From: Nostoc foliaceum FACHB-393
GTDB lineage: Bacteria > Cyanobacteriota > Cyanobacteriia > Cyanobacteriales > Nostocaceae
DNA length: 64,000 nt
Direction of reading: 5' to 3'
Assembly (NCBI RefSeq): GCF_014698505.1
Contig: NZ_JACJTD010000040.1
Coordinates: forward strand, 1 to 64,000
Positions within the stretch are counted from its first letter, which is position 1, and the number at the start of each line of letters is the position of its first letter. The notes under the pieces are model-generated. The model was not told where the DNA came from. It saw only the letters and a list, made by a program, of their open reading frames with translations, and ran no database searches. The position numbers and the translations under genes are program-made. This document shows positions 402 through 28,741 of the stretch, piece after piece.

Positions 402-427
402 TACAGCTACTCGATAAGTTAACCGTA
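402..427. promoter_or_regulatory. Island operator-like site 1 (TAC-N20-GTA dyad)
   Basis: A 26-base site beginning TACAG and ending AACCGTA, with central CGATAA. It sits in a wider inverted repeat (396-406 with 423-433, ATAAACTAC against GTAGTTTAT). It lies 42 bases before the methyltransferase start at 470. It is one of 13 similar sites in the first 29 kb. The binding protein is inferred, most simply the Rrf2 regulator at 21444. Confidence 0.55.
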
Positions 428-469
428 GTTTATGATTACACAGTGTGCATCAAACGGGAATAACCCCTT

Positions 470-1126
470 ATGCCAAAAGATTGGTATGAATGGCACGACC
501 TCTACAACACTGAGCCAAAATTGCAGCAGCGTCTAGAAATCGTGCAGGAATATATTGCTTACAGCTTGAATGCCTCACGAAATGGAGCTATCCGAATAGT
601 GAGTGTTTGCGCTGGTGATGGACGAGATTTATTAGGAACTTTAAAAAATCACCCTCGTGCAAAGGATGTTTCTGCACGACTGGTTGAAATAAATTCAAAT
701 TTAGTTGAGCGTGGACGAGCAACTATAGAGTCTTTGGGTTTAGCCAAACAAATTGAGTTTATCAATGGTGATGCAACTCTTGCCACTAACTATCTAGGAG
801 GAGTACCAGCAGATATTGTGATTGTGTGTGGTGTGTTTGGCAATCTGGCACAGGAAGCTGAACTCAATCGCTTACTAGATAACCTGAGTTTTCTGAGTAA
901 ACCCGGTGCTTTTGTTATCTGGACTCGCGGACACTCTAACGGTATTCCCTACTCTGACAATGTGCGGAAAATTTTAAGTGCATCTGGATTTGAGGAAGTG
1001 AACTTCAAACTCACTGATACAAAAGATATGGGTGTTGGTCTCCATCAGTACCTTGGTGAAAACTTTGCTACACCCAAAGAGCAACAGTTATTTGTGTTTT
1101 CTGGCATTCCTAGGAAAGCGAGGTAA
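470..1126 (+). CDS. Class I SAM-dependent methyltransferase family protein
   Basis: A 218-residue soluble protein. The motif I glycine-rich loop is visible as VSVCAGDGRDLLG (about residues 45-57), followed by an acidic strand end (VEIN) and a GDA segment typical of Rossmann-fold methyltransferases. The substrate cannot be told from sequence. It is the first gene after operator-like site 1 and is followed 3 bases later by the GST-like gene, so the two are probably co-transcribed and probably continue into the flavoprotein/ferredoxin pair. This suggests, without proving it, a role in sulfur-compound metabolism. No strong Shine-Dalgarno is seen before the ATG. Confidence 0.75.
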   Translation: MPKDWYEWHDLYNTEPKLQQRLEIVQEYIAYSLNASRNGAIRIVSVCAGDGRDLLGTLKNHPRAKDVSARLVEINSNLVERGRATIESLGLAKQIEFINGDATLATNYLGGVPADIVIVCGVFGNLAQEAELNRLLDNLSFLSKPGAFVIWTRGHSNGIPYSDNVRKILSASGFEEVNFKLTDTKDMGVGLHQYLGENFATPKEQQLFVFSGIPRKAR

Positions 1127-1129
1127 AAA

Positions 1130-2353
1130 ATGTCTATTCAAAACACAGTATCGAGTTGGGAAGAAGTTTTAGAGATTGCTAGAAAAAATACTTCTGCGCG
1201 TAGGGTAAAGAGGCCGGGACAATCTCCTTCTACTGTACCAATACCCAGCAGTTTACAGAAACTTCCCCCAAACACACAACCACCAGTCTTGCTTTATCGA
1301 GATACTAATTCCTGGTGTCCTTTCTGCGAGAGAGTTTGGTTTGCTCTGGAAGAAAAGGAAATTCCCTTTGCAACGGAGTTTATTGATTTAAGTAATAAAC
1401 CCAAATGGTACACTGACTTAGTTCCCACAACCCTTGTCCCAGCAGCAAAAATTAAGGGGAACTTAGTATATGAATCCAAAGATATTCTCTTGGCTTTAGA
1501 AGAAAGGTTTCCACATCCAGCATTACTGCCGGAAAATCCAGAGGAAAACGCTGTTGCTAGGCAGTTGCTTGAGGAGGCTGAGACTAACGGTTTTAGAGAG
1601 ATTGCGTACAAATTCCTGAGAGAAGCACCTGTAGATGCTGATGATTTGGCAAACTTACAAGCAGCATTTGAGGCGAAGTTAGATGAACTTGAGGAAGCTT
1701 TGGCTAAATATTCCAGCCCCTACTTTGTAAGTACATTTAGCTTAGTTGACATTCTGTATAGCCCCCATCTAGATAGATTGGCGGCTAATTTACCTGTATA
1801 TCGGGGATATCACCTCAAAGGAAATCCTCGCTTTCCTCGAATTAATGCTTGGTTTGATGCACTTAATCAGCGTCCTGCTTATCACAGGGTAAAATCGGAT
1901 AATATCACCAACAATTTACTGTTGCGTCGCAGATGGGGTGTAGAACCAATTGGAAATCCTTTACCTCTGGATGTGACAGATAGTGAGAAAATTCAATATC
2001 GCGCAGAAGCCGCTGAGAGATTGAGCGATAATCGGGAAGTTGCGATCGCAGATATTATCAAAAATTCTGGAGTCCAAGCTTTAGCGGCAGACGGTGATTT
2101 TACCACAGTTAAGGACGCTGTTGATTTTCACTTGCGACAACTGGCTGATTATCTCATTCATGGCAATGGCGAAACCTTACCGGGTGGAAGGACTGGTGGT
2201 AAAAATAGTAGTGTTGATCCTATCTTCGCTGCTGTGGGTGCTATTACTTTCGCATATTTGAGAAATCGCATCTGCGCCCCCCGTGATATGAGTGCTGGAG
2301 CAGCAACAGCGTTTCGAGCAGCGATAGATAAATTGTTGACTTCTGTTTATTAA
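1130..2353 (+). CDS. Glutathione S-transferase family protein with extended C-terminus
   Basis: A 407-residue protein. Residues about 50-135 form a thioredoxin-like GST N-terminal domain with a CPFC motif (as in omega/DHAR-type GSTs, where the first Cys is catalytic) and the VPTTLVPA cis-Pro segment plus an ES glutathione-contact pair. A helical GST C-domain follows to about residue 260. The remaining ~145 residues are an extra domain not found in ordinary ~220-residue GSTs. Likely roles are thiol transfer, deglutathionylation or dehalogenation-type chemistry; the substrate is unknown. A GCGAGG ribosome site overlaps the end of the methyltransferase gene, supporting coupled translation. Confidence 0.75.
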   Translation: MSIQNTVSSWEEVLEIARKNTSARRVKRPGQSPSTVPIPSSLQKLPPNTQPPVLLYRDTNSWCPFCERVWFALEEKEIPFATEFIDLSNKPKWYTDLVPTTLVPAAKIKGNLVYESKDILLALEERFPHPALLPENPEENAVARQLLEEAETNGFREIAYKFLREAPVDADDLANLQAAFEAKLDELEEALAKYSSPYFVSTFSLVDILYSPHLDRLAANLPVYRGYHLKGNPRFPRINAWFDALNQRPAYHRVKSDNITNNLLLRRRWGVEPIGNPLPLDVTDSEKIQYRAEAAERLSDNREVAIADIIKNSGVQALAADGDFTTVKDAVDFHLRQLADYLIHGNGETLPGGRTGGKNSSVDPIFAAVGAITFAYLRNRICAPRDMSAGAATAFRAAIDKLLTSVY

Positions 2354-2467
2354 TTTTGTGGGCGTTGCTGATTGAATGGATGAATTTGCCTTATGCAGAG
2401 ACGCAGCGAAAAGTCGGAGCGCTCCTGAATTCTGCTGTACTTTGGAGACTTTATTGAGGAAAGGGAA

Positions 2468-4165
2468 TTGCTAACAGTCCATAGTGAAAATGAACTACAG
2501 TTAACTGCTGATGTACTGGTAATTGGTGGTGGCCCTGCCGCAGCATGGGCAGCCTGGGCAGCCGCATCTCAAGATGCCAAAGTCATCATTGTTGATAAAG
2601 GTTTTCTGGGTACGAGTGGTGCGGCGGCGGCTAGTGGTAACGGCATCATGGCTCCTTCTCCAGAGAATTGGGACAAAGTTTTATCAGAGCGTTATCGCGT
2701 AGGAAAAAACCTCGCTAACTCACGTTGGATCGAGCGTGTTATCGAAAAAACTTGGCTGAGTTTGCCCCTAGTGGAAAGTTGGGGCTATCATTTCCCTAAA
2801 GAAGATGGGGAATCTGTGCGTCAGAGTTATTATGGCCCTGAATATATGCGGGTACTTCGCAAAAACCTTTTGCGTGTAGGTGTGCAGATTCTCGATCAAA
2901 GTCCCGCTCTAGAGCTTTTATTGGCTGACGACGGCTCAGTAGCTGGTGCAAGAGGTGTGCAGAGGCAGCATCATCGTACCTATACCGTTCGTGCTGGTGC
3001 AGTAGTCTTAGCGAATGGCGGTTGTGCATTCTTGAGTAAAGCATTAGGTTGCAATACCAATACAGGTGATGGACTGTTGATGGCAGTGGAAGCTGGTGGA
3101 GAACTTTCTAGTATGGAAGCTTCTAATCACTATGCAATTTCGACGGCTTTCAATGCCACTGTAACTAGGGGTGTTCCCTTTGGCTGGGCTAGTTATAGTG
3201 ATGAAGCAGGCAATGATCTGGGTGGCTATATAAATGGTCGTCGTGATCCATCGTTTCTCCCTAATGCCCTACTGAAAGGCCCCGTTTATGCTCGTTTAGA
3301 TCGAGCCACACCAGAAGTTAAAGCAGTGATTGAAAAGTCTCATTTCATTGCTTTTCTACCTTATACAAAAGCTGGTATTGACCCCTATACAGAACGAGTG
3401 CCTGTGACACTTGTTTTAGAGGGTACAGTCCGTGGTACAGGTGGGATTCGGATTGTGAATGATGATTGCGCTACAAAAGTTCCTGGTCTCTACGCTGCCG
3501 GTGATGCAGCATCGCGGGAGTTTTTAGCCGGTTTAGCTTCTGGGGGTGGTGGTCCCAATGCTGCGTGGGCAATTTCCACAGGGCAATGGGCTGGAGTTGG
3601 GGCAGCGGACTTTGCTAAGAGTTTGGGCGCTCATGCAAATGAACGGGTTGCGCGTCCTGCTGGTAAAGTGGGATTGCGATCAGCTACGCTGGGCAAAACG
3701 CCATCGCCTTTGGCGGGGTGTAGCCCATCATCGCCCTCACCCACTTCTGAAACATTCGATAGTGAAGCGATCGTGCGCGGTGTACAAGCCCAGATGTTAC
3801 CGTTGGAGAAGAATTACTTACGTTCTGAACAGGGACTTTTGGATTCTCTCGCCAAATTAGAAACGCTGTGGCAGCAAGTACAAGAAAACCCGAAACAAGA
3901 TACAGTGCGCGATGTGGAATTTTCTCGTCGAGCAGCGGCTTTAACGGCTGTAGCACGATGGGCATATTTTAGCGCGTTACATCGCACGGAAACGCGCAGC
4001 GAACATATTCGCATAGACTATCCTGAAACCGATCCAAATCAGCGTTATTACCAAGCAACAGGTGGCTTAGATAAGCTTTGGGTGAGGCGTGATTGGATTA
4101 CGGATGCGATTGCTACACCACCAGTAATTACCACTCAAACCACACCTACTGTATCAAAGTTGTAG
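2468..4165 (+). CDS. FAD-dependent oxidoreductase, fumarate reductase / AprA-like flavoprotein
   Basis: A 565-residue protein starting at TTG, chosen because GAGGAAAGG lies just upstream. The FAD-binding dinucleotide motif GGGPAAAWAA is near residues 20-30, followed by a TSGAAAASGNGI segment typical of the fumarate reductase/succinate dehydrogenase/adenylylsulfate reductase flavoprotein family, and GLYAAGDAA near residue 345 closes the FAD domain. The ferredoxin gene 12 bases downstream gives an AprA/AprB-like pair; such pairs are known beside sulfonate-utilisation genes in other bacteria. The actual reaction is unknown. Residues about 400-425 are encoded by a palindromic repeat (3671-3735) and look like an in-frame insertion. 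Confidence 0.8.
   Translation: MLTVHSENELQLTADVLVIGGGPAAAWAAWAAASQDAKVIIVDKGFLGTSGAAAASGNGIMAPSPENWDKVLSERYRVGKNLANSRWIERVIEKTWLSLPLVESWGYHFPKEDGESVRQSYYGPEYMRVLRKNLLRVGVQILDQSPALELLLADDGSVAGARGVQRQHHRTYTVRAGAVVLANGGCAFLSKALGCNTNTGDGLLMAVEAGGELSSMEASNHYAISTAFNATVTRGVPFGWASYSDEAGNDLGGYINGRRDPSFLPNALLKGPVYARLDRATPEVKAVIEKSHFIAFLPYTKAGIDPYTERVPVTLVLEGTVRGTGGIRIVNDDCATKVPGLYAAGDAASREFLAGLASGGGGPNAAWAISTGQWAGVGAADFAKSLGAHANERVARPAGKVGLRSATLGKTPSPLAGCSPSSPSPTSETFDSEAIVRGVQAQMLPLEKNYLRSEQGLLDSLAKLETLWQQVQENPKQDTVRDVEFSRRAAALTAVARWAYFSALHRTETRSEHIRIDYPETDPNQRYYQATGGLDKLWVRRDWITDAIATPPVITTQTTPTVSKL
3671..3735. repeat. Palindromic repeat read in frame inside the flavoprotein gene
   Basis: This stretch contains the arms CGCCA and TGGCG around a short loop and is rich in TACGC/TAGCC words like those of intergenic palindromic repeats elsewhere in the window. 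It encodes a low-complexity Ser/Pro/Gly segment that does not look like part of the flavoprotein fold. Confidence 0.5.
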
Positions 4166-4177
4166 CAGGAGCATATC

Positions 4178-4519
4178 ATGATCGAGCTTGTCAGCCATAA
4201 ACTCTGTATCAATTGCAATTTGTGCGTCCAAGTTTGCCCTACCAATGTCTTTGACTCCGTACCCAACCAGCCACCTGCGATCGCCCGCAAGGAAGACTGT
4301 CAAACTTGTTTCATGTGTGAGGCTTATTGTCCTGCGGATGCACTCTATGTTGCGCCTGAATCTCATACAAGTGTTGCAGTCAATGAGGATGATTTAATTG
4401 AAAGTGGCATCATGGGTGAATATCGTAGCCTCTTGGGTTGGGGATATGGCAGGAAAAACAATAGCGAATTAGATACGGCTCATAAACTGCGTCAATTACC
4501 GCGTCCTTATCAAAGTTAA
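4178..4519 (+). CDS. 4Fe-4S dicluster ferredoxin, AprB-like
   Basis: A 113-residue protein with two complete [4Fe-4S] motifs, CINCNLCVQVCP (residues 9-20) and CQTCFMCEAYCP (about 48-59). AGGAG at 4167 sets the ATG start. It directly follows the flavoprotein gene and is presumably its electron-transfer subunit, as AprB is for AprA. The C-terminal ~50 residues carry no further cysteines. The redox partner role is inferred from adjacency. Confidence 0.85.
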   Translation: MIELVSHKLCINCNLCVQVCPTNVFDSVPNQPPAIARKEDCQTCFMCEAYCPADALYVAPESHTSVAVNEDDLIESGIMGEYRSLLGWGYGRKNNSELDTAHKLRQLPRPYQS

Positions 4520-4529
4520 TTTGGACTCT

Positions 4530-5549
4530 CTAAAGCACTTTTTGTTGTAGTTCTGGAAATACTTTAGAGACTTTATTTAAAAGATAATCGCCATAAGTCC
4601 CGCGAAATTCGTGGACACTGGCTTTATCCCAGCGATCGCTTTTATCATCATTCACTACTACATCCTTCAGTTCAATGGGTTTGACTTCAACGTTGAAATT
4701 GGGATCAAAGAAAAAGGGAAATGACAGGCGATTACTTGTTGATAGGTTCTGAACGCGGTGTGGTGTTGAGCGATACAGTCCTTGCGTCATGCGATCAAGC
4801 ATATCCCCAATGTTGCATATGAATGAACCAGGAATAGGAGGTGCATCTATCCAACCAGACTTTGATTTGACTTGTAATCCACCGACATTATCTTGTTTGA
4901 GTATAGTTAATACACCGTAATCAGTATGTTCGCCAACGCCCCATTCAGATTTAGATAATGATGGATTAGGAGGGTAATTGAAAATCCGAAATAATATCAA
5001 TGGGTCTTTTGTATAACGGTCTGCAAAGTAAGACTTTTCTAAACCTAGACTCAAGGCTATACCAGCCATGAGAATGTGTCCGAGTTTGGCCATTGAGTCT
5101 ATATATTCAAGTACCGTTTCCCTAAATTGGGGAATGTTGGATGGAAAGAGATTGCGACCGTGCATTGGTACACCAGCTTTCACAAGTGGGTGATTTTCTT
5201 CTAGTTCTGTACCGAAGTAAATACCTTCTTTTAAGTCAGGTCTACCTGATGTCAATTCCTTACCCACAGAGAAATATCCTCGCCATGCTTTACCACCAAA
5301 AGCCATACGAATTTTCTGTTTAGTTTCTTCATCCTGCGCGAAGAACTGTTGGCTAAGATTTTCTAGTTTCTCTTGCAATTTTTCATCAACTCCATGTCCG
5401 ACGATATAAAAGAAACCGTAATCTTGGCACGCTTGCCTAATTTGGTCTGCAACTACTTTAGAAGAGTTCCTAGTTTGGGAAATCAGCGCACTAATATCAA
5501 TTATGGGAACTTGTGAAAACTCTTTATCTACATCTTGTAAGATTGTCAT
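4530..5549 (-). CDS. Isopenicillin N synthase-type 2OG-Fe(II) oxygenase
   Basis: A 339-residue protein of the IPNS/2-oxoglutarate oxygenase family. The N-terminal DIOX_N segment (VPIIDISALIS, YGFFYIVGHGV) is followed by the jelly-roll core with iron ligands H208 and D210 (EHTDYG) and H264, and R274 (in SNRLSFP) to bind the 2-oxoglutarate carboxylate. The length is normal. Family members oxidise diverse small molecules, so the substrate is unknown. It is convergent with the ferredoxin gene and divergent from the aldo/keto reductase. Operator-like site 2 lies in the shared upstream region and could serve both. Confidence 0.85.
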   Translation of the reverse strand: MTILQDVDKEFSQVPIIDISALISQTRNSSKVVADQIRQACQDYGFFYIVGHGVDEKLQEKLENLSQQFFAQDEETKQKIRMAFGGKAWRGYFSVGKELTSGRPDLKEGIYFGTELEENHPLVKAGVPMHGRNLFPSNIPQFRETVLEYIDSMAKLGHILMAGIALSLGLEKSYFADRYTKDPLILFRIFNYPPNPSLSKSEWGVGEHTDYGVLTILKQDNVGGLQVKSKSGWIDAPPIPGSFICNIGDMLDRMTQGLYRSTPHRVQNLSTSNRLSFPFFFDPNFNVEVKPIELKDVVVNDDKSDRWDKASVHEFRGTYGDYLLNKVSKVFPELQQKVL

Positions 5550-5699: not shown

Positions 5700-5725
5700 T
5701 ACGGTAATTCGATAGAAATAGTGTA
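5700..5725. promoter_or_regulatory. Island operator-like site 2
   Basis: A 26-base dyad TACGGTAATTCGATAG followed by 7 bases and GTA. It lies between the divergent oxygenase (start 5549) and aldo/keto reductase (start 5849). The half TACGGTAA is the same as in sites 4 and 6. Confidence 0.6.
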
Positions 5726-5848: not shown

Positions 5849-6886
5849 ATGCGGTACAATCAGCTAGGTAATAGTGACCTAAAAGTTTCAGATATTTGCC
5901 TTGGCACAATGACTTATGGGCAGCAAAATAGTATTGAAGAAGCCCACCAGCAGCTAGATTATGCCACTAAAGAGGGAATCAACTTCATTGATGCAGCTGA
6001 GATGTATCCAGTACCAACCAGTGCTGAAACCTATGGCTTAACCGAAACTTATATTGGAGAATGGTTAAAACATCAACAGCGAGATCAACTAATAATTGCT
6101 ACTAAAATAGCAGGGCCGGGTCGAGGCTTTAAGTGGCTACGTGATGGAGCTAAAGCCATTGATAGAGATAATATCAAACAAGCTGTAGATGATAGTCTGA
6201 AAAGGTTGCAGACAGACTATATTGATTTATATCAAATCCATTGGCCGGATCGTTATGTACCACGTTTTGGACAAACAGTTTTCGACCCTAACCAAGTCGG
6301 GGAAACAGTTCCCATCACTGAACAATTAGAAGTTTTTGCCGATGTCATAAATGCAGGTAAAATTCGCTATATCGGTTTAAGTAATGAAACTCCTTGGGGC
6401 ATTGCACAATTTAGCCATGCAGCTAAACAATTAGGATTACCTAAAGTTGTTTCTATTCAAAATGCTTACAATTTACTCAATCGAGTTTTTGATGGCGCAC
6501 TTGCAGAAGCAGTTTATTACGAAAACGTTCCTTTACTAGCTTACAGCCCTTTGGGATTTGGCTATTTAACTGGTAAATACCTCAACGGTAAACCAGAAAA
6601 AGCAAGAGTTACTTTATTTGAAAACTTTGGTCAGCGATATTTAAAACCAAATGTTAGCAAAGCAGTAGCAGCTTATGTAGAAATTGCCAAACGCCATCAA
6701 CTAAGTCCTGCACAATTAGCGATCGCATTTGTGCGGAGTCGTTGGTTTGTTGCTAGTACGATTATTGGTGCTACCACCCTAGAACAACTCAAAGAGAATA
6801 TAGAAAGCATCAATATAGTTCTTGATAAAGATATCTTGGCTGAATTGGATGCAGTTCACACTCAATATCCAAATCCAGCACCATAG
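5849..6886 (+). CDS. NADP(H)-dependent aldo/keto reductase, Tas-like
   Basis: A 345-residue TIM-barrel aldo/keto reductase. Visible hallmarks are the start MRYNQLGNSDLKVSDICLGT, the active-site Asp and Tyr region (FIDAAEMYP), Lys in IIATKIAG, and DLYQIHWPDRY. The length and the Tas-like insert (YPVPTSAETYGLTE) match bacterial Tas-type reductases. It probably reduces aldehydes or ketones, possibly those released by sulfonate cleavage (inferred). It is preceded by operator-like site 2 and followed by a hairpin at 6912-6943. Confidence 0.88.
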   Translation: MRYNQLGNSDLKVSDICLGTMTYGQQNSIEEAHQQLDYATKEGINFIDAAEMYPVPTSAETYGLTETYIGEWLKHQQRDQLIIATKIAGPGRGFKWLRDGAKAIDRDNIKQAVDDSLKRLQTDYIDLYQIHWPDRYVPRFGQTVFDPNQVGETVPITEQLEVFADVINAGKIRYIGLSNETPWGIAQFSHAAKQLGLPKVVSIQNAYNLLNRVFDGALAEAVYYENVPLLAYSPLGFGYLTGKYLNGKPEKARVTLFENFGQRYLKPNVSKAVAAYVEIAKRHQLSPAQLAIAFVRSRWFVASTIIGATTLEQLKENIESINIVLDKDILAELDAVHTQYPNPAP

Positions 6887-10137: not shown

Positions 10138-10163
10138 TACTAAATGTCTACCGATTTGTAGTA
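10138..10163. promoter_or_regulatory. Island operator-like site 3
   Basis: A 26-base dyad TACTAAATGTCTACCGAT followed by 5 bases and GTA. The 38 bases 10134-10171 match site 5 (18460-18497) at about 31 positions, far beyond the dyad itself. It lies 108 bases before the Cys-rich leader ORF. Confidence 0.6.
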
Positions 10164-10494: not shown

Positions 10495-10890
10495 ATGGTG
10501 CAACTATTAGTTAAAGAAGAATCCAAACATTGGATCAATGTTGCTACTTCTTTATCTACGGAATTGGCAGCCACCGCAGTGGAAAGAGATAACAAAGCAG
10601 GGCTGCCAGATATAGAAATCCAACGGTTGCGAGAAACTTTTAAAGAAAGGGGAGAAGTAGCAGTTTCTGTTTTTGCAGCCAAGGCTTTTGCTACTCGCGT
10701 TGGTTTGAATCTCACCACAGGTATTTTTGAAGTTATGGGAACTCGTTCTACGGGGAGTAAATACGGCTTTGACCGTTACTGGCGAGATTTACGTACTTTC
10801 ACGCTTCATGACCCTGTAGATTATAAGCTGCGCGATATTGGCAATTGGGTACTGAATGAACAATTACCCATAATCACGCAATATTCCTAA
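10495..10890 (+). pseudogene. Internally deleted acyl-CoA dehydrogenase-like (SfnB/DszC type) gene
   Basis: An open frame of 131 codons with a good ribosome site (AAGGAG, 10478). Its first ~48 residues (LAATAVERDNKAGLP, IQRLRETF) resemble the N-terminus, and its last ~83 (RGEVAVSVFAAKAF, IFEVMGTRST, KYGFDRYWRDLRTFTLHDP, DYKLRDIGNWVLN) the C-terminus, of the SfnB/DszC group of acyl-CoA-dehydrogenase-like flavin monooxygenases of about 400 residues. The middle, including the flavin and substrate domains, is missing, consistent with a large in-frame deletion near codon 50. It is unlikely to be catalytic. The ancestral role would have been organosulfur (sulfone or sulfonate) oxidation. Confidence 0.7.
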
Positions 10891-15149: not shown

Positions 15150-15175
15150 TACATTAAGATTATCGGGTTACCGTT
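15150..15175. promoter_or_regulatory. Island operator-like site 13 (imperfect)
   Basis: TACATTAAGATTATCGGG followed by TTACCGTT. It fits the 26-base pattern except that the last base is T instead of A. It lies 30 bases before the ATG at 15205. Confidence 0.4.
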
Positions 15176-17098: not shown

Positions 17099-18346
17099 TT
17101 AAGACACGGCATAATCCCAACTCTGTTGTTGTGCCGACAACACCGCATCTTGATAAACTTGCCCAAACAATACTCGCTGTGCATGACTCCCTCCAATCTC
17201 ATGCAAACGTGGTAAAACAGGTTTCAGTTCTGCAACAGTTGTGTTGAAATCACCTTTGGCATGAGCTACCATTCCTCTAGCTGCGGGAATTGCTAACTCT
17301 ACCCAACTCCGTCGCAGGAAAGGATTAATACTCAAAGTGTGATACTGCATACTCTGAAGCATTTGGTTCACCCAATCATGGTGTCCGGCTTTGGCAAGGG
17401 CATAGACATAATGCAAATCCTGAAATGGTAATGCGTGTTCATCAATCCGGCTGTAAAGATAAGGACTGATGTCTTGCCAACGGTTCTCCACATTTACACC
17501 GCGCAATTCTAGGCGCAATAATAATGAAATTGCTCCTACTTGGTCTTTAGGAGATTGTTTGTTAGCACGTTCCCAAATATGCGTATCGTAGAGTTTGAGA
17601 ACTTTTTGGTAGTTTCCTAACTGCAAATAATATAGTGCAATGTGCCACCAGTTATGAGTGTAAAGCATGGAGTTGCAGTCTTCCCAGGTATCTGCAAAAC
17701 TCTCCATCCAAGCTATTCCCTCATCGACTCTTCCCTGAGTTTCCATGACATGAGCGATCGCATGATGCGCCCAAGGATCATATCTATTCAATGCGATCGC
17801 TTTACGAGCTATCTTTTCTGCTGCTTTGAGTTGGTGACATTGTTCTAATCCAAAGGCCACCATGCCATATAAATAATGTTGTTGGGGATTGCTAGGTAAA
17901 ACCTTCTGGGCAATTTCTAGTAATTTTTCTTTATTGCCTGTATAAAAATAGTGATACTGCCCCTGCTGCACAGATATTAAATCACGGGGAAATTGATTGG
18001 CAATCTCTTCATGAGTGGCGATCGCTACATCAATTTCTTGATTTGCCCAAGCTAAAATTGCCTGCACATATAGCTGTTCTCTGACGGTAACCTTGGTGCA
18101 ATACTGTTGTGCAGTTTGTAGATATGGTAGAGCTACCTGCCAAGCTTTACGATTTTCTTGGGTGAGATAATAAGCAGCCGCATAAGCATAAGCTAATGCA
18201 CAAGTGGGATCTGCTGCAATTGCTTGTAAAACTGCTGTTTCTGCATCCTTACCATAACCAAGCATCTGATCGATAAAACGGTTAATGGCTGCGATCGCAT
18301 CGGCTGAATCTGTTGTAACTACTAGTCCTTGGGCATCTTTAAGCAT
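17099..18346 (-). CDS. TTC38-like tetratricopeptide repeat protein
   Basis: A 415-residue soluble all-helical protein. Helix pairs with TPR spacing run throughout, and the central block (LYGMVAFGLEQCHQ, IALNRYDPWAHHAIAHVME, then THNWWHIALYYLQLG) is characteristic of the TTC38 family. The biochemical role of that family is not established. It is divergent from ssuD; three operator-like sites fill the 279-base gap and site 4 lies 42 bases from its start, so it probably belongs to the sulfonate regulon. It ends 7 bases from the antitoxin gene start region. Confidence 0.78.
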   Translation of the reverse strand: MLKDAQGLVVTTDSADAIAAINRFIDQMLGYGKDAETAVLQAIAADPTCALAYAYAAAYYLTQENRKAWQVALPYLQTAQQYCTKVTVREQLYVQAILAWANQEIDVAIATHEEIANQFPRDLISVQQGQYHYFYTGNKEKLLEIAQKVLPSNPQQHYLYGMVAFGLEQCHQLKAAEKIARKAIALNRYDPWAHHAIAHVMETQGRVDEGIAWMESFADTWEDCNSMLYTHNWWHIALYYLQLGNYQKVLKLYDTHIWERANKQSPKDQVGAISLLLRLELRGVNVENRWQDISPYLYSRIDEHALPFQDLHYVYALAKAGHHDWVNQMLQSMQYHTLSINPFLRRSWVELAIPAARGMVAHAKGDFNTTVAELKPVLPRLHEIGGSHAQRVLFGQVYQDAVLSAQQQSWDYAVS

Positions 18347-18387: not shown

Positions 18388-18413
18388 TACGGTAAGTCTA
18401 TAGGAATAATGTA
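18388..18413. promoter_or_regulatory. Island operator-like site 4
   Basis: TACGGTAAGTCTATAGG followed by 6 bases and GTA. It lies 42 bases upstream of the TTC38-like gene (minus strand), in the TTC38/ssuD divergent region. Confidence 0.6.
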
Positions 18414-18463: not shown

Positions 18464-18489
18464 TACTAAAACTCTACCGACTAATAGTA
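18464..18489. promoter_or_regulatory. Island operator-like site 5
   Basis: TACTAAAACTCTACCGAC followed by 5 bases and GTA. The flanks (AAAC before, TTTAGTTT after) also match site 3. It lies midway between the divergent TTC38-like gene and ssuD. Confidence 0.6.
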
Positions 18490-18555: not shown

Positions 18556-18581
18556 TACGGTAAATTGATAAAATTACCGTA
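18556..18581. promoter_or_regulatory. Island operator-like site 6 before ssuD
   Basis: The most symmetrical copy: TACGGTAAATT against AATTACCGTA around a GATAA centre, flanked by AA and CTTAA. It ends 44 bases before the ssuD start, where it would overlap a promoter. Confidence 0.65.
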
Positions 18582-18625: not shown

Positions 18626-19771
18626 ATGCAGCTACTTTGGTTTATTCCAACTCACGGTGAAGGGCGCTATCTTGGTACTGCCATAGGTGGGCGGGCAGTC
18701 AACTTTGATTACTGGCGGCAGATAGCCCAAGCAGTAGATCATTTAGGTTTTACAGGGGCATTACTACCTACAGGTCGTTCATGTGAAGATGCCTGGATTT
18801 TGGCATCAACTTTGGTGACACACACCAAGCGGATGAAGTTTTTGGTGGCTATTCGTCCGGGGTTGATGTCGCCGGGAGTAGCAGCACGAATGGCAGCAAC
18901 CTTTGATCGCATTTCTGGTGGAAGGTTATTGATTAACGTCGTCACCGGTGGCGATCCAGTGGAATTGGCGGGAGATGGATTGCATCTTTCCCATGATGAT
19001 CGCTACAGATTAACAGATGAATTTTTGGCAGTGTGGCGAGAGATTGCAGCTGGAGAAACTGCTGATTTTCAGGGAGATTATCTGAATATCCAAAGTGGTA
19101 GGCTATTATTTCCCACAATCCAGAAACCTCATCCGCCTCTGTGGTTTGGAGGTTCTTCCCCGATTGCTCAAGAAATTGCAGCCAAACATGTAGATGTATA
19201 TTTAACTTGGGGCGAACCACCAGAACAAGTTGCCCAAAAGATTGCCTCTGTACGTCGGTTAGCAGCAGCCCAAGGAAGAACATTACGTTTTGGGATTCGT
19301 CTCCACGTGATTGTGCGAGAGACAGAAAGCCAAGCCTGGGATGCAGCTAACAATTTGATTCGCTACGTAGATGAAGATGCGATCGCCAAAACGCAACAAG
19401 CCTACGCCCGCATGGATTCCGAAGGACAACGCCGGATGAAAGAATTACACAACGGCTCTCGTGAAGCCTTAGAAATTAGCCCGAATTTATGGGCAGGAAT
19501 TGGTTTAGTCCGTGGTGGTGCTGGCACAGCTTTAGTAGGCGATCCCGATACCGTTGCTCAGAGAATGCTGGAATATCAAGAAATAGGTATCGATACTTTT
19601 ATCTTCTCTGGTTATCCTCATCTAGAAGAAGCATATCGGGTAGCAGAATTACTTTTCCCTCGTTTACCCCTAGACAATCAGCCAATAGTAGAACCGCAAC
19701 TATTGAGTCCCTTTGGCGAGGTTGTAGCCAACCAAGAATTCCCCAAACAGCAAATCGCCACCGTAGATTAA
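18626..19771 (+). CDS. ssuD: FMNH2-dependent alkanesulfonate monooxygenase
   Basis: A 381-residue protein, the same length as E. coli SsuD, with the bacterial luciferase-like TIM barrel. It starts [17 protein letters not shown] and has [16 protein letters not shown] holding the active-site-region Cys (Cys54 in E. coli), [25 protein letters not shown] and the [17 protein letters not shown]-terminal loop. It uses reduced FMN and O2 to convert alkanesulfonates into aldehyde and sulfite. The reductase gene ssuE follows 52 bases later. Three operator-like sites lie upstream, so expression is probably released on sulfate limitation. Confidence 0.95.
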
Positions 19772-19823
19772 AAAACACTCTGCGTACCTCTGCGTTTAAA
19801 AACCTCAAAGCCTCTTATCTAAC

Positions 19824-20390
19824 ATGACAAATATATTAGCGATCGCCGGCAGCCCCTCTCACCCCTCCAGAACCTACGCCATTCTTGAACACGCTGCTAA
19901 AACTCTATCGCAGCAAGGATTAAATCTAGATATAATCTCAGTGCGAGATATACCTGCCGAAGACTTAGCTTATGGACGTTACGATAGTCTCGCGTTAGAA
20001 AAACCAAAAGCCCTCCTAGAAAAAGCAAGCGGTGTAATTATTGCAACTCCCATTTATAAAGCAGCCTACACAGGTGTACTGAAAGCATTTCTAGATTTAT
20101 TACCCCAGAAAGCTTTGGCAGGGAAAGTTGTGCTACCTATAGCTACAGGTGGGACAATCGCTCATTTATTATCAGTAGAGTATGCCTTAAAACCTGTGCT
20201 ATCTGAATTAGGCGCACGCCATATATTGAGTACAGTGTACGCAGTCGATAAGCAAATTCAAATCCAGCCAGATGGTAGCGTGCAACTCGATGAGGAAATA
20301 AACCAAAGATTGCAAGATGTCCTCAAAGAGTTTGCTCTAGCGGTGAATCATTCCCAGAATGCTGCCAAAGAATTTGTCCATGCTGGCTAG
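19824..20390 (+). CDS. ssuE: NAD(P)H-dependent FMN reductase
   Basis: A 188-residue flavodoxin-like reductase. The phosphate-binding loop is AGSPSHPSRTYAIL near the start, and ATPIYKAAYTGVLKAFLDLLP with ATGGTIAHL are signatures of the SsuE/MsuE group. It supplies FMNH2 to SsuD. The length is close to E. coli SsuE (191). It is co-directional with ssuD and almost certainly in the same transcript. Confidence 0.94.
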   Translation: MTNILAIAGSPSHPSRTYAILEHAAKTLSQQGLNLDIISVRDIPAEDLAYGRYDSLALEKPKALLEKASGVIIATPIYKAAYTGVLKAFLDLLPQKALAGKVVLPIATGGTIAHLLSVEYALKPVLSELGARHILSTVYAVDKQIQIQPDGSVQLDEEINQRLQDVLKEFALAVNHSQNAAKEFVHAG

Positions 20391-20709: not shown

Positions 20710-20735
20710 TACTAAATTTAGATCGACTAACTGTA
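20710..20735. promoter_or_regulatory. Island operator-like site 7
   Basis: TACTAAATTTAGATCGAC followed by 5 bases and GTA. It ends 26 bases before the ATG at 20762, just ahead of the AAGGAG ribosome site, in front of the decayed SBP/NIL remnant. Confidence 0.55.
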
Positions 20736-21412: not shown

Positions 21413-21438
21413 TACAATAAATTTATCAATTTACAGTA
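21413..21438. promoter_or_regulatory. Island operator-like site 8 before the Rrf2 gene
   Basis: TACAATAAATTTATCAAT followed by TTACAGTA. It ends only 5 bases before the ATG of the Rrf2 regulator, where binding would block its own expression. No Shine-Dalgarno fits in the gap. Confidence 0.6.
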
Positions 21439-21443: not shown

Positions 21444-21911
21444 ATGACAAATAGCTTAAAAAAACAAAACTATACGCTCTTGGATCTGTCTGCGAAAGTG
21501 GAATATGCGCTATTGGCACTTTTAGAACTAGCCAACCATTATGTTCACAAAACACCCACAACTATGAGTGACATATCTGCCAAGCATCCAATACCAGAGC
21601 GTTATCTAGAGCAGATACTTTCCAGTTTGCGGCGGGCGGGTGTTGTACAGAGTCAACGTGGCTCTAAAGGTGGTTTTGTTTTAGCGCGTGAACCTCGCCA
21701 ATTAACGTTATTAGAGGTCGTGATTATGTTGGATGGAGAACAGAAAGAAAAAGAGTCTCCTTCTGAAGAAAATTTGGAAAAAATTTTGGTGTCGGAGATT
21801 TGGCAGCAAGCAGATGTTGCCGCACAAACTATTTTGAGTCAATATACCATCCAAGACTTGTGTGACCAGCGCGAAGCACGTTTACAGAAGAGTCAGATGT
21901 ATTACATTTAG
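21444..21911 (+). CDS. Rrf2-family transcriptional regulator
   Basis: A 155-residue protein with the Rrf2 winged helix-turn-helix: DLSAKVEYALLALLELA (helix 1), then TMSDISAKHPIPERYLEQILSSLRRAGVVQSQRGSKGGFVLAREPRQLTLLEVV, with the wing motif RGxxGGF. The three-Cys cluster of IscR/NsrR is absent (a single Cys near the C-terminus, DLCDQ), as in CymR, the cysteine-metabolism repressor of Firmicutes. Operator-like site 8 abuts its start codon, consistent with autoregulation, which makes it the best candidate for the protein that binds the 13 island sites. Its ligand or partner is unknown. Confidence 0.88.
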   Translation: MTNSLKKQNYTLLDLSAKVEYALLALLELANHYVHKTPTTMSDISAKHPIPERYLEQILSSLRRAGVVQSQRGSKGGFVLAREPRQLTLLEVVIMLDGEQKEKESPSEENLEKILVSEIWQQADVAAQTILSQYTIQDLCDQREARLQKSQMYYI

Positions 21912-23600: not shown

Positions 23601-24353
23601 TCATTTTTGTCTAACTCCAGGTATAACTTCGGCTTCAGATGATCCCAAAGAAAATCCATAATTTTCTCGCCAAATGTTATTGCCTAAAATTAACAGGTAA
23701 GAACCAATACTTACACAGGTAGCGACAACTAAGGCTGGAGTTTCTAACGTTTGGCTTTCTATTAAAATAGAAACACCTAATCCCATTAAAATAAAGGGAA
23801 CTAAAGAATTACCATAGCGAGTAATTGCAGAAGCGATCGCCTTGATCTGAGTTAAGTGATAGGCTGTATAACACCACACACCTACCATCACGAAGAAAAC
23901 TACCAAAATCACAAGTAAGTTATCCCATGTATTGGTAGCAAACATTGGCATATAAATACTGATATTGTCACTACCATTGGCGATGGTAACTGCTGCTACA
24001 CCATAGGTTTGGGGTGAAAGGAAATTGCTCCACCAAGCTTGCGAAGATTCAAGAGGATTTAAATCCTCTGTATCGCTAGTCTCTTGATTTAGTAAACGAT
24101 TGATGCCAATCATGATTGGAACAATACCGAGTAGACCAATCCAAGATTCTGGTAGGATAAACTTGCCAAAGAAGCTGGGTAAACTGGCGACTACTAACGC
24201 ACTAAAACCTAAATACTGACCGATAACGATGTGACGTCGGCGAAAGCAAGTATTTACCTGTGAGAAAAACAGCGACAGAACAATGATATCGTCGAGATTG
24301 GTAGCAGCAAAAGCTGTGAGTCCTGTAGGAATAGCAGTCAGTAGTTCGCTCAT
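23601..24353 (-). CDS. CadD-like cadmium resistance / cation transporter family protein
   Basis: A 250-residue membrane protein with about six hydrophobic spans. Family signatures are the start GLTAFAATNLDDIIVLSLFFSQV, RRRHIVIGQYLGF, and TYGVAAVTIANGSDNISIYMPMF with its conserved Asn-Gly-Ser-Asp. CadD proteins confer cadmium resistance in staphylococci; in cyanobacteria the substrate is untested. A paralogue at 25753 lies on the other side of the LysR gene. Confidence 0.82.
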   Translation of the reverse strand: MSELLTAIPTGLTAFAATNLDDIIVLSLFFSQVNTCFRRRHIVIGQYLGFSALVVASLPSFFGKFILPESWIGLLGIVPIMIGINRLLNQETSDTEDLNPLESSQAWWSNFLSPQTYGVAAVTIANGSDNISIYMPMFATNTWDNLLVILVVFFVMVGVWCYTAYHLTQIKAIASAITRYGNSLVPFILMGLGVSILIESQTLETPALVVATCVSIGSYLLILGNNIWRENYGFSLGSSEAEVIPGVRQK

Positions 24354-24740: not shown

Positions 24741-24766
24741 TACAGTTTTCCGCTAAGTTTACCGTA
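24741..24766. promoter_or_regulatory. Island operator-like site 9
   Basis: TACAGTTTTCCGCTAAG followed by TTTACCGTA. It lies 54 bases before the LysR start, in the region divergent from the CadD-like gene at 23601. Confidence 0.5.
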
Positions 24767-24820: not shown

Positions 24821-25756
24821 ATGACGCTGGAACAGTTGCGAATTTTTTTAGCCGTGGCGGAAATGCTGCACTTTACCCGTGCAGCGGAAGCACTTTATAT
24901 TACTCAACCAGCAGTCAGTGCTGCTATTCAAACTTTAGAGACAGAATATGGTGTCAGGTTATTTCATCGCATCGGTCGTCATATTGAAATCACAGATGCT
25001 GGCAAATTATTACAAGGTGAGGCGCAAAAAATTCTTGATCATGTACAGTTAACAGAACGTGGCTTGAAGGAATTAAATAATCTGCAACGGGGGGAATTGA
25101 AGATAGGTGCAAGTCTCACGGTTGGTAACTATTGGCTACCCGAAAAAATTAGCCAGTTTAAGCAGTTATATCCAGGCATTTTTATAAATTGTCAGTTGGG
25201 AAATGCGGAAGAAATTTGTGAAGGAACTGCTGTAGGTATGTATGATTTGGGTTTGGTTACAGGGGATATTAAACCATCGTTACAGCAATCTTTAGAGCAA
25301 GACGAAGTAGGAAGCGATCGCCTGCAAATTGTTGTAGGTAAATCTCACCCTTGGTATCAAAGTGCGGAGATTTATTTAGATGAATTATTCAGCACAAGTT
25401 GGGTGATGCGTGAATCTGGTTCTGGTGCACAGCAGATGTTTGAACAAGCCTTACAAAGTTGGGGAATTGAACCTAGTAACCTGGATGTTGTACTTAACCT
25501 CAACACTAGTGAAATGGTAAAAGCAGTTGTAGAAAGTGGTGTTGGTGCAGCTGCACTTCCAGAATCAATGGTGAAAAAAGAATTACAACTAGGAACATTA
25601 CACGCTGTACAAATTACCAACCCCAAAAAACAATCTAAAAAAGAATTAGAAATTCTCCAGCCAATTTGGAAACTAAAACACCGTCAACGTTTTCATACAC
25701 GAGTCATGATAGCTTTTGAAAATATGCTTATGCAAAAGAATGTACAAGCGGCTTAG
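24821..25756 (+). CDS. LysR-family transcriptional regulator
   Basis: A 311-residue regulator. The N-terminal winged HTH (MTLEQLRIFLAVAEMLHFTRAAEALYITQPAVSAAIQTLE, ending RLFHRIGRHIEITDAG) is followed by a LysR substrate-binding domain from about residue 90 (LKIGASLTVGNYWLP). The domain ends normally; the last ~30 residues are basic. It is flanked by two CadD-like transporter genes, and its 3' end overlaps the second by 4 bases (convergent). It may regulate those transporters or sulfur genes; the effector is unknown. Confidence 0.88.
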   Translation: MTLEQLRIFLAVAEMLHFTRAAEALYITQPAVSAAIQTLETEYGVRLFHRIGRHIEITDAGKLLQGEAQKILDHVQLTERGLKELNNLQRGELKIGASLTVGNYWLPEKISQFKQLYPGIFINCQLGNAEEICEGTAVGMYDLGLVTGDIKPSLQQSLEQDEVGSDRLQIVVGKSHPWYQSAEIYLDELFSTSWVMRESGSGAQQMFEQALQSWGIEPSNLDVVLNLNTSEMVKAVVESGVGAAALPESMVKKELQLGTLHAVQITNPKKQSKKELEILQPIWKLKHRQRFHTRVMIAFENMLMQKNVQAA

Positions 25757-26439
25757 TTTGATAATGGTTGCTTTTTTACTAAAATTGCTAAACAAATACA
25801 ACTTGCTAATAGCTTTATCAGGCTTAAAGCTTCTGTTTTTAAAATAATTATTCCACCCACTATTATTAATACAAAAGGTAAAATATAGCTGCTATACTGA
25901 CTTAACTGATACACTATTTTTGTTTGATAAGTAAATTTATAAGCTAGATAGCAGCAAATTGCTATTAATATAAAAAACACTCCAATAATAATTATAAAAT
26001 CAACTATATTACTACTAGCAAATAATGGCACATAGACGCTGATATTATCACTACCATTGGCGATGGTGATGGCTGCAACATTGTAAGTCCTTGCATTGAA
26101 AAAACTTGTAATGTTTGCATCTTGATATTCTGCTGATGCGAACGCCACCTCTAAAGTTTGATTTTCCTCTCGATTGATCAAACTACTGATACCTATCGTC
26201 ATCGGTATTAATCCCAGCAGTCCAATCCAGTTGGGTGGTATGATTAATCCACCAAATAACCCAGGAAGACTAGCAATAATTAACACTGTAAAGCCCAAGT
26301 ATTGACCAGCAACAATGTGCCGAGACTTGAAGCTAGAATTTAGCTGAGAAAACAGCAGTAATAAAATAACGATATCATCAATATTAGTGGCAAAGAAGGC
26401 TGAGATTCCTACTAAGAGTGTAGTAATTAACTCACTCAT
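25753..26439 (-). CDS. Second CadD-like cadmium resistance transporter family protein
   Basis: A 228-residue paralogue of the protein at 23601 with the same signatures: GISAFFATNIDDIVILLLLFSQL, KSRHIVAGQYLGF, TYNVAAITIANGSDNISVYVPLF. About six membrane spans. It is slightly shorter at the C-terminus and more AT-rich at codon level. The pair probably arose by an old duplication around the LysR gene. Confidence 0.82.
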   Translation of the reverse strand: MSELITTLLVGISAFFATNIDDIVILLLLFSQLNSSFKSRHIVAGQYLGFTVLIIASLPGLFGGLIIPPNWIGLLGLIPMTIGISSLINREENQTLEVAFASAEYQDANITSFFNARTYNVAAITIANGSDNISVYVPLFASSNIVDFIIIIGVFFILIAICCYLAYKFTYQTKIVYQLSQYSSYILPFVLIIVGGIIILKTEALSLIKLLASCICLAILVKKQPLSN

Positions 26440-26678: not shown

Positions 26679-27470
26679 CTAATAAACCAACTTTAAGCTC
26701 ACCATCATTAATATAAAGTAAACCATAAACCGCAGTGGTTTTTGCGGCGCAATTTGACAGATTTTAGATCCTAGCAATACTCCTGGTACTGAGCCGAGCC
26801 ATATCGGTAGTACTAAACTCCAATCAACTGTTCCCAAGGTGAGATGTCCAACAGCAGTAAATAGTAAGAGAATTGCGGCTTGGGAAATATCTGTACCAAC
26901 TAACTTACGTGCATCCAAACGAAAAAATGCAATCAGCGCCAAAGCAAACATTGAACCAGAAGCAACACTTGTTAGACCCACAATACAGCCTAAAAATGCT
27001 CCTACACTTACTGTCTGCAAACGTCCTAGTTGAGTGTTTAAGTCAAATTTGGGTAGTTCAGGTAGTTGTAATTGAGGAAAGAAGGTCAATAGCAGCATTT
27101 GCACTAATGCCAAAAGAGTGACTGATAAAATCGTCATACCCAACAAATGCAGCATAACGCTGTTCAGGTTATGCTCGGACTTGAGTTTAATCAAGTGCAG
27201 TATCCCTACTCCCAACAAAGAACCGGGAACACTCCCTAAAGCCAGCCACTTCACTACTTCTCTATCGAGGGTTTGTTGCTGCCAATGTTTGATGCTACCA
27301 ACGACTTTCATTAATGTCGCCGCCACCACATCAGAACTTATTGCTACGGCAGGTGGTACTTGAAAAACAAAAATTAACATTGGGGTGATGAGAGAAGCAC
27401 CACCAATTCCTGTCAAACCAACAACAATACCAACTAGAAAGCTGAAGAGAGGCAATAATAAAAAATCCAT
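26679..27470 (-). CDS. Sulfite exporter TauE/SafE family protein
   Basis: A 263-residue membrane protein with about eight hydrophobic segments. The two TauE/SafE half-repeats start LVGIVVGLTGIGGASLITPMLIFV and VGAFLGCIVGLTSVASGSMFALALIAF. Family members export sulfite, sulfoacetate or related organosulfur anions. In an ssuDE/TauD island, a role in removing toxic sulfite is plausible. It is divergent from the PAP2 gene, with operator-like sites 10 and 11 between them. Confidence 0.85.
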   Translation of the reverse strand: MDFLLLPLFSFLVGIVVGLTGIGGASLITPMLIFVFQVPPAVAISSDVVAATLMKVVGSIKHWQQQTLDREVVKWLALGSVPGSLLGVGILHLIKLKSEHNLNSVMLHLLGMTILSVTLLALVQMLLLTFFPQLQLPELPKFDLNTQLGRLQTVSVGAFLGCIVGLTSVASGSMFALALIAFFRLDARKLVGTDISQAAILLLFTAVGHLTLGTVDWSLVLPIWLGSVPGVLLGSKICQIAPQKPLRFMVYFILMMVSLKLVY

Positions 27471-27603: not shown

Positions 27604-27629
27604 TACTAAAGACTGATCGACTTACCGTA
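27604..27629. promoter_or_regulatory. Island operator-like site 10
   Basis: TACTAAAGACTGATCGAC followed by TTACCGTA. It combines the left half of sites 3/5/7 with the right half of site 6, which is the strongest sign that both variants belong to one motif. It lies in the TauE/PAP2 divergent region. Confidence 0.6.
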
Positions 27630-27784
27630 TTTTAAAATTAAAAGGAGTAAAAGTCCATGTTTTAGTAAAGCCGTACAAATTTCCTGTATTAATAAATACA
27701 ACTAGGAAAAGATTTTTTTATAAAAACGTCTAATAACAAACATTTTGACTTCAGTAACAAAATTATAATAGTATTTTAAAAAAC

Positions 27785-27810
27785 TACATTAATTGCACCG
27801 TACTACCGTA
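27785..27810. promoter_or_regulatory. Island operator-like site 11
   Basis: TACATTAATTGCACCG followed by TACTACCGTA. It ends 6 bases before the ATG at 27817. Confidence 0.45.
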
Positions 27811-27816
27811 TTTGAC

Positions 27817-28581
27817 ATGCCAGAGTTAGAAAAAGTCAACAATGAAAATCAACAAACACCAAAGCAGCGTTCGCCCATTGGGTTTGTGCAAAAATTGTTA
27901 ATTACCTATTGGCGTTCTTTGTTGCTGCTGTTCGTAGGAATATATTTACCCCTGCAAATTTTTGGACTGCTGGCGTTAGAGGTGCGGTACAACGAGGGTG
28001 GTTTTCCTTGGGATTTACCGATTCTGGTGAAGGTTCACTCTCTAGCACAGCCACAGTTAGATGTATTCGCCACGATTGTGACAAAGTTGGGTTCTTTTTG
28101 GATTGTGTTACCTGTTCTGAGTGCGATCGCACTTATTTTACTAGTGCAACGTCGCTGGCGATCGCTCACATATTTACTGATTACTGCTGCTGGTAGTGCT
28201 ACGATCAACCGCACAGCCAAAGAATTTTGGCACAGAGTACGTCCTGATTTGTGGACTTCAGCTGCTCCAGAGTTTGATTATTCATTCCCCAGTGGTCATG
28301 CTATGACGAGTATGACCTTGATTGCTCTTTTGATAGTTTTAACTTGGGGTAGTATTTGGTGCTGGTTAACGGTGATTTTGGGTAGTGTGTATATCTTGGT
28401 CATTGGCTGGACACGCCTATACTTGGGAGTACACTTTCCCAGTGACATTATTGCAGGTTGGATGGTAGCGATCGCTTGGGCAATTGGCGTGAGTTTAATT
28501 ATTCGACCATTATCACAGTCAGCAAATATTACCAGTGGAAAACCAGTGAGTGAAACGAAGTTACTTCCTGAAGAACAGTAA
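27817..28581 (+). CDS. PAP2-family membrane phosphatase
   Basis: A protein of 254 residues from the ATG at 27817. A TTG at 27793 is in frame but lies inside operator-like site 11, so the ATG is preferred. Five to six membrane spans. The acid phosphatase motifs are present: KEFWHRVRP (K-x6-RP type), PSGHAMTS and SRxxLGVHFPSD-type (TRLYLGVHFPSDIIAG). It probably dephosphorylates lipid phosphates such as undecaprenyl diphosphate or phosphatidate. Its link to the sulfur island rests only on the upstream sites. Confidence 0.87.
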   Translation: MPELEKVNNENQQTPKQRSPIGFVQKLLITYWRSLLLLFVGIYLPLQIFGLLALEVRYNEGGFPWDLPILVKVHSLAQPQLDVFATIVTKLGSFWIVLPVLSAIALILLVQRRWRSLTYLLITAAGSATINRTAKEFWHRVRPDLWTSAAPEFDYSFPSGHAMTSMTLIALLIVLTWGSIWCWLTVILGSVYILVIGWTRLYLGVHFPSDIIAGWMVAIAWAIGVSLIIRPLSQSANITSGKPVSETKLLPEEQ

Positions 28582-28715
28582 CTGCTCAATAAAGAATAAA
28601 AATTTTCAGTTGTGCATATAGAGTTAATTCATACAAAAAATTTACGTATAATTAAGTATTTTTGTGATTCAAACTTTTGTCTGGCTCTAGACTTTTTGGA
28701 ATTTTTATTCTAAAG

Positions 28716-28741
28716 TACGGTTAGTGGATAGAATTACCGTA
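28716..28741. promoter_or_regulatory. Island operator-like site 12
   Basis: TACGGTTAGTGGATAGAA followed by TTACCGTA. It ends 4 bases before the ATG at 28746. It is the last copy seen in the window. Confidence 0.6.

Follow-up and report, generated by a model that had tools for sequence, protein, structure and literature searches.

Members of the Rrf2 family include IscR, an iron–sulfur (Fe–S) protein with three cluster-ligating cysteines and an operator of about 26 bp, and CymR, the master repressor of cysteine metabolism in Bacillus subtilis and Staphylococcus aureus. In the cyanobacterium Synechococcus elongatus, the Crp-family regulator CysR acts in sulfur starvation, within a regulon of srp, cysK, cysE and sulfate permease genes. 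Here we examine a 64,000-nucleotide stretch of Nostoc foliaceum FACHB-393 DNA (positions 1 to 64,000 of contig NZ_JACJTD010000040.1; hereafter the window), in which a 26-base dyad with the outer triplets TAC and GTA recurs 13 times around organosulfur genes and before the gene of an Rrf2-family protein that we call RrfW. We consider it probable that cyanobacterial sulfur acquisition is controlled by CymR-like Rrf2 repressors whose operator is this dyad, extended to 36 bp by A/T-rich wings.

Excerpts of the Bacillus literature describe CymR as acting with CysK to repress cysK, ssu and other genes, in a complex that O-acetylserine dissociates (PMC3828012, PMC2940859). Passages of two further papers state that CysK binds its partners through a C-terminal isoleucine, with CymR among the partners listed (PMC12895370, PMC4961446), and that CysE binds CysK in the same manner (PMC12895370). 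No description of an Rrf2/CymR-type sulfur switch in cyanobacteria appeared among the literature matches listed, all of them open-licence papers; an Rrf2 regulator of psaAB in Synechocystis appeared there only as an entry in a reference list.

The cyanobacterial system resembles CymR in its Rrf2 family membership, its C-terminal isoleucine tail, the frequent presence of cysK as a neighbor in two of its three lineages and the control of cysK and ssu genes, which the above excerpts give for CymR and which is predicted here. It differs in that the proteins score below the CymR equivalog cut-off, have their own 36-bp operator and come from another phylum; in that several paralogues exist, of which two have a site where their own gene starts; and in that the targets include the sulfate permease and the Crp-family CysR. 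Compared with the CysR system of S. elongatus, CysR itself lies behind the operator here, and sites remain in genomes in which no CysR was found.

Conserved sites in the window

All 13 26-mers lie where the first-pass annotation had placed them; 12 end in GTA, and the site at 15150 ends in GTT. Because the bare TAC-N20-GTA pattern occurs 30 times across the window, the outer triplets alone are weak evidence. When left out in turn from the training of a strand-symmetric matrix, every one of the 13 sites still ranked among the top 13 positions of the 64 kb, with a lowest held-out score of 12.7 against 11.4 for the best non-site, the latter scored with the full matrix. Twelve of the sites, which had been proposed to lie between genes, are free of overlap with open reading frames (ORFs) of at least 90 aa, and the other, 27785, overlaps a PAP2 ORF with a TTG start. 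For nine of the 13, a labelled gene start is at most 130 bp away, in agreement with the statement that this holds for most; the distance is 133 bp for 27604 and larger for 15150 and 10138, and no start is labelled within 600 bp of 20710. The last 35 kb, described as devoid of sites, is not quite so: with a 36-bp window matrix, a 14th, weaker site (score 16.1) is found at 30184, about 50 bp upstream of an SPFH gene, and no other window position beyond 28716 scores above 15. A sigma-70 scan around ssuD and the Rrf2 gene gave 10 sites versus 7.8 in shuffles, too small a difference to be usable.

The 26-mers are part of a longer conserved unit of about 36 bp, taaanTACGGTAAnTCGATCGAnTTACCGTAnttta, in which A-rich wings widen the dyad and the center is GATA- or GATC-like. 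Half-sites are diverse (GGTAA, GGTTA, GATAA, ATTAA, TATAA ... TAAAA), and the two arms vary independently. What had been described as two variants is better seen as many half-site versions; we therefore rejected a division into two operator classes, as the half-sites appear to grade into a continuum. By these computational measures, the sites are real and conserved and, taken together, symmetric.

Sites on other contigs of the genome

We use G000 for the source genome, other G codes for genomes, L for loci and C for contigs; the window is contig C113 of the 8.87-Mb G000. A loose first pattern was useless genome-wide when one mismatch was allowed (658 forward matches versus 741 in the control). 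A degenerate pattern with up to two mismatches gave 23 matches and none in the control, confined to four contigs (11 in C113, eight in C167 and two each in C100 and C2), so that the motif is not equally common elsewhere; equal abundance had been named in advance as an outcome that would count against a regulon. At up to three mismatches, the counts were 39 and 11. In 117.6 kb from other G000 contigs, chosen because a looser pattern had matched there, the 13-site matrix detected 17 sites that score above 20, and none in the reversed control.

We assembled a 33-site set, comprising the 13 window sites and 20 from stretches of C167, C100, C107 and C2, the weakest three of which score 14.6 to 17.1. 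Four matches of 8.4 to 12.1 (L028, L031 and L034) were left out, as was a match of 17.9 (13-site matrix) at L007 1501 (contig C68:138739). Seven of the 33 sites overlap an ORF of 90 aa or more. In four cases the overlap is with the beginning of an ORF that is probably over-long (PAP2, RrfC, CysR and SbpA), in two the ORF is small and unlabelled, and the seventh site (L030 9636) falls inside a HAD gene.

The region from 100 to 170 kb of C167 (L028–L031) is a second large organosulfur cluster and holds 12 of the 33 sites. C167 encodes several SsuA-type binding proteins, SsuB/C, a luciferase-like monooxygenase, TauD, an OprB porin, AhpC and a second AprA-like protein. C100 carries genes for cysteine synthase, serine acetyltransferase, a Crp-family CysR homologue, an NIL protein, a permease and a sulfate-binding protein, and the presence of sites in this sulfate-uptake/cysK/cysE/CysR cluster indicates that the regulon concerns sulfur acquisition in general. 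Across G000, the site-bearing clusters include SsuA/B/C/D/E, TauD, TauE, OprB, AhpC, the sulfate-binding protein, NIL, cysK, cysE and CysR. The single organosulfur regulon first envisaged is thus recovered in its organosulfur genes but also extends to sulfate permease genes, cysK, cysE, CysR and tauE.

For two contigs the link to sulfur is less clear. On C107, the member genes encode MgtC and FAD (flavin adenine dinucleotide)/Fe–S proteins that resemble glycolate oxidase, with a site at L033 7770 before either the glycolate-oxidase-like FAD/Fe–S genes or MgtC. On C2, they encode DJ-1/PfpI and acetyltransferase proteins, with sites at L034 7028 and 7070 before the DJ-1/PfpI genes.

Sites in other cyanobacteria

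Among 143 RrfW relatives found in other records, we kept and scanned the best 80 loci (1.41 Mb), three of which come from one N. flagelliforme record set. The 13-site matrix gave 233 sites above 20 versus one in reversed sequence, and the 33-site matrix gave 283 above 16 versus four; these counts are not independent, because many of the genomes are closely related. In 78 of the 80 loci (all except L037 and L101), a site lies within the 60 bp before the start of the Rrf2 match, most commonly at −31, and many loci have a second near −122. A search for a −10 element shared by the Rrf2 promoters found only TAnnnT matches, which at their most frequent position occur in 46 of 79.

Sites precede sbpA, cysA, cysK, cysR, tauE or ssuD in other genomes, several of which have a cysK-linked Rrf2 only; the genes were labelled by BLAST against G000 proteins, and NCBIfam confirms cysA for four proteins. 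Many cyanobacteria thus have sites before Rrf2 genes and before genes of sulfate uptake, cysteine synthesis and sulfonate/taurine use. The regulon, initially drawn around genes of the window, reaches other contigs and distant cyanobacteria.

Plasmids provide some of the more distant examples. In S. elongatus PCC 7942, cysK and serine acetyltransferase genes adjoin plasmid-borne srpI, with an Rrf2 gene 4 kb away; the best site (20.1; 30.4 of 46.4 kb scanned) lies 35 bp before this Rrf2 gene, and the highest score in 200 mononucleotide shuffles was 13.2. Weaker sites of 14.4, 10.9 and 10.2 precede other genes, and one of 9.4 lies inside a gene. According to a passage of PMC8049743, srpI is upregulated under sulfur starvation. 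A Pseudanabaena plasmid, ABRG53c (L226), has six sites above 15 among PAP2, TauE, MgtC, prohibitin-family, cysA, Crp-family, cysK, cysE, Rrf2, porin and ssu genes. Its sites keep the TAC...GTA arms, and several have CATGTA-like centers instead of GATCGA, possibly through co-divergence of operator and regulator. Both here and in L146 (G027), sites have Rrf2, CysR-like or cysK/cysE genes grouped around them, which might reflect an ancestral or mobile regulatory module.

CymR-like features of the Rrf2 proteins

RrfW (21444..21911, plus strand; 155 aa) is the proposed DNA-binding protein. It belongs to the Rrf2 family by Pfam (PF02082, E value 3.1e-32) and by TIGR00738 (108.3 bits, cut-off 73.3), is 98% identical to a Nostoc flagelliforme protein and is modelled with helices and a two-strand wing (mean predicted local distance difference test score, pLDDT, 86.8). 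CymR (NF047409) is its best equivalog match in NCBIfam, and B. subtilis CymR is the second-best match in a PDB search, behind an unnamed BadM/Rrf2 protein. IscR and NsrR share the Rrf2 family and a similar operator length with the proteins described here, but RrfW scores lower against the IscR model than against CymR and has a single cysteine. It therefore lacks the ligands for an IscR-type three-cysteine cluster.

The relatives of RrfW are of two kinds, the RrfC proteins and the cysK-linked ones. A tree of 132 proteins gives the RrfW group support of 100/93. In it, a branch with support of 97/81 separates the cysK-linked proteins from 93 rows, which comprise RrfW and RrfC together with the proteins of G085, G027, G039, G099, G060 and G014; several of the linking rows are long branches flagged as unsure. 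The recognition region is near-identical between the two clades, suggesting that all of these lineages may read one operator and that two further lineages may share the site with RrfW.

The C-terminus is MYYI in 135 of the 136 Rrf2 proteins listed, a count that describes a subfamily rather than all Rrf2, because the proteins were gathered by similarity to RrfW. The exception, L159, ends in SFVV and is a distant outlier (32% identical to RrfW); of three plasmid homologues read, two end in MFYI and one in MYYI. The MYYI tails thus present a C-terminal isoleucine peptide, as CymR does, through which the proteins may bind CysK. A cysK homologue is found no more than 6 kb away from 30 of 31 cysK-linked, 67 of 79 RrfC and seven of 12 RrfW genes, and from none of six second copies, with some of these loci being short; RrfC is often beside cysK, cysE, CysR and tauE. 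As in a CymR-like regulon, the predicted site-bearing promoters cover cysteine and sulfonate genes. Together, the MYYI tail, the cysK neighbor and the list of targets make a CymR–CysK-type circuit the most likely one here.

Rrf2 and other candidate binding proteins

To compare the candidates, we counted pattern matches in 148 genomes of the order, uncorrected for relatedness, scoring a MYYI-type Rrf2 as a match at E ≤ 1e-25 and CysR as an alignment reaching residue 194 or more. The 49 genomes with both proteins have 267 matches (13 in the control), the 45 with Rrf2 only have 55 (6), the five with CysR only have six (4) and the 49 with neither have 27 (19); in all, 94 Rrf2-positive genomes have 322 matches versus 19 in the control, and 54 Rrf2-negative genomes have 33 versus 23. 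Excess sites are thus largely confined to genomes with Rrf2, but CysR accompanies many more of them. At least two matches occur in 54 of 94 genomes with Rrf2 versus nine of 54 without (p 1e-6), and among genomes with CysR the effect of Rrf2 is borderline (41 of 49 versus two of five, p 0.05). The pattern misses some sites: G066 has no match, yet a site of 20.7 precedes its sbpA. The expected co-conservation of sites with Rrf2 is therefore present but imperfect, and looser than that with CysR. The proposal that the autoregulated Rrf2 is the best candidate binder gains support from the site before its start in 78 of 80 loci, and its tail and cysK neighborhood point to CymR.

Several observations weigh against this assignment. 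RrfW, RrfC and the cysK-linked protein score 94.8, 96.5 and 100.2 bits, respectively, against the CymR equivalog NF047409, below its cut-off of 195, and for this reason we class them only as CymR-like. In the window, the 6 kb on either side of RrfW are free of cysK homologues, and the stretches taken from the 31 cysK-linked Rrf2 loci contain no site that scores above 14. A plasmid of Nostoc sp. UHCC 0302 with a MYYI-Rrf2 gene, sulfonate-binding and Cad genes has no site above 9 in 24 kb. In the order sample, 26 of the 94 Rrf2-positive genomes have no pattern match, whereas 21 of the 54 Rrf2-negative genomes have one, and five of 19 re-scored genomes among the latter hold a site of at least 22 (G051, G097, G130, G168 and G186; that of G097 precedes a porin gene). 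CysR is the better predictor of two or more matches (43 of 54 genomes with it versus 20 of 94 without, p 3e-12), also within Rrf2-positive genomes (41 of 49 versus 13 of 45), and Rrf2 is not significant within CysR-negative genomes (13 of 45 versus seven of 49, p 0.13).

These counts favor CysR, itself encoded in the regulon, as an activator that binds the sites and of which Rrf2 would be a mere target. Sites also precede cysR, the start lying 10 bp beyond the site end in L032 (inferred start), 8 bp in G042, where CysR occurs with a cysK-linked Rrf2 only, and 96 bp in G060. Sites are not limited to genomes with CysR, however. They persist before sbpA, cysA or tauE in G048, G064 and G072, which have no CysR at E ≤ 1e-20, and 12 of 14 re-scored Rrf2-positive, CysR-negative genomes (nine of the 22 such order genomes with matches, plus G064, G072, G085, G089 and G091 from a phylum sample) carry a site of at least 22. 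Conversely, G095 and G097 have CysR (54%) without a MYYI-type Rrf2, a class with only five genomes in the order sample, and the stretches that surround their cysR and sbpA hold nothing above 15, although G097 has the strong site before a porin gene noted above. The recognition helix of CysR resembles that of NtcA, whose box, GTAN8TAC, is much shorter; this box occurs four times in 4.25 kb around sites versus 22 times in 64 kb, too few to judge. We regard CysR as an unlikely binder of the dyad. Its strong association within Rrf2-positive genomes nevertheless makes it the one serious competitor; CysR may act as a co-regulator, or its presence may just indicate that a genome has a larger sulfur regulon.

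Three other explanations fare worse. That some further regulator common to these genomes binds the dyad would account for the imperfect co-occurrence of Rrf2 and sites, but is improbable: among the regulators examined, Rrf2 has the most constant site at its own promoter, and the site length fits its family, the excerpt at hand giving a 23-bp consensus for NsrR (PMC9338935). Binding by the LysR protein encoded at 24821, or by another LysR, is suggested by the site 54 bp upstream of its gene. LysR proteins such as CysB and Cbl often act in sulfur metabolism. Orthologues (E ≤ 1e-80) occur in only 13 of 117 genomes, however, and are absent at that threshold from the site-rich G022, G103, G087, G074 and G078; LysR is too rare to be a plausible general binder, and we consider this reading very improbable. 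Least credible is an RNA hairpin or small repeat of the MITE (miniature inverted-repeat transposable element) kind, as the inverted symmetry and many copies might suggest. Across 297 sites, dyad matches number 2,927 versus 3,077 in column shuffles; this lack of compensatory change speaks against a hairpin, and arms that vary independently are expected of a protein operator whose halves decay separately. In addition, the flanks of the 33 sites are dissimilar (mean identity 28%), the first 31 kb of the window contain no Rfam match at the gathering score and sites precede genes of both strands. On the evidence of flanks, covariation and Rfam, we rejected this candidate.

Gene context of the window sites

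The first site (402..427) is 42 bp upstream of methyltransferase/GST (glutathione S-transferase)/AprAB-like genes (470–4519), assigned by matrix and Pfam, and the second (5700..5725) lies between divergent genes for a 2OG-Fe oxygenase (4530–5549, minus strand) and an aldo/keto reductase (5849–6886, plus strand). The site at 10138..10163 looks intact and is 331 bp upstream of ORF 10495–10890, which encodes only the C-terminal domain of an acyl-CoA dehydrogenase-like protein and is perhaps a decayed desulfurization gene. The site with the deviating last base (15150..15175) is 271 bp upstream of a phosphonate-type binding protein gene (15447–16253).

Three sites (18388..18413, 18464..18489 and 18556..18581) occupy the intergenic region between a TPR gene (17099–18346, minus strand) and ssuD (from 18626, plus strand); the third has the top score of the window with the 26-bp matrix and lies 44 bp upstream of ssuD. 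The ssuD (alkanesulfonate monooxygenase) and ssuE (FMN, or flavin mononucleotide, reductase) genes span 18626..20390 on the plus strand and were assigned by Pfam, with ssuD above the NCBIfam TIGR03565 cut-off. The site at 20710..20735 falls between ssuE and the Rrf2 gene, whose own operator (21413..21438) ends 5 bp before its ATG. This spacing, together with distances of 4 to 54 bp before several other window genes, suggests repression.

The site at 24741..24766 precedes the LysR-family gene (24821..25756, plus strand), a likely target rather than a general binder. Two genes of the Cad family (cadmium resistance transporter; 23601–24353 and 25753–26439) flank the LysR gene, and Cad genes are found again in sulfur clusters outside this genome (L180, L184 and L197). 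The site at 27604..27629 lies between PAP2 (plus strand) and the TauE/SafE sulfite exporter gene (26679..27470, minus strand), which is downstream of it. The site at 27785..27810 covers the annotated start of the PAP2 ORF (27793–28581), whose true start is probably further in. The last of the 13 (28716..28741) is 4 bp before a small ORF (28746–29177) without a Pfam match, which the first-pass annotation called a membrane protein, and the weaker site (30184..30209) precedes the SPFH/Band-7 gene (29322–30134, minus strand). Prohibitin-type genes also occur in the sulfur clusters of G033 (L180) and of the Pseudanabaena plasmid.

Proposed model for cyanobacterial sulfur control

We propose that a dimer of RrfW, RrfC or the cysK-linked Rrf2 would bind the dyad over or beside the transcription or translation start, with repression in force while sulfur is plentiful. 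In sulfur shortage, accumulating O-acetylserine would displace the tail, and the regulon would open. In Nostocales, two duplicated, autoregulated Rrf2 copies would serve an enlarged organosulfur regulon, the RrfC copy beside cysK/cysE/CysR and the RrfW copy in the organosulfur cluster.

For a wider claim the scales stand nearly level: an ancient Rrf2–CysK switch, convergent on or homologous to that of Bacillus CymR, could be the main sulfur sensor of cyanobacteria. The cysK-linked MYYI-Rrf2 would read O-acetylserine through CysK and stand above CysR, and Nostocales would have duplicated it into two self-repressing copies that act on the same operator and run an organosulfur-scavenging regulon over several clusters. 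Our analysis provides a predicted operator, a candidate sensor whose four-residue tail can be tested and a list of targets from S. elongatus to Nostoc. If the proposal is true, one circuit links sulfate uptake, cysteine synthesis and organosulfur scavenging.

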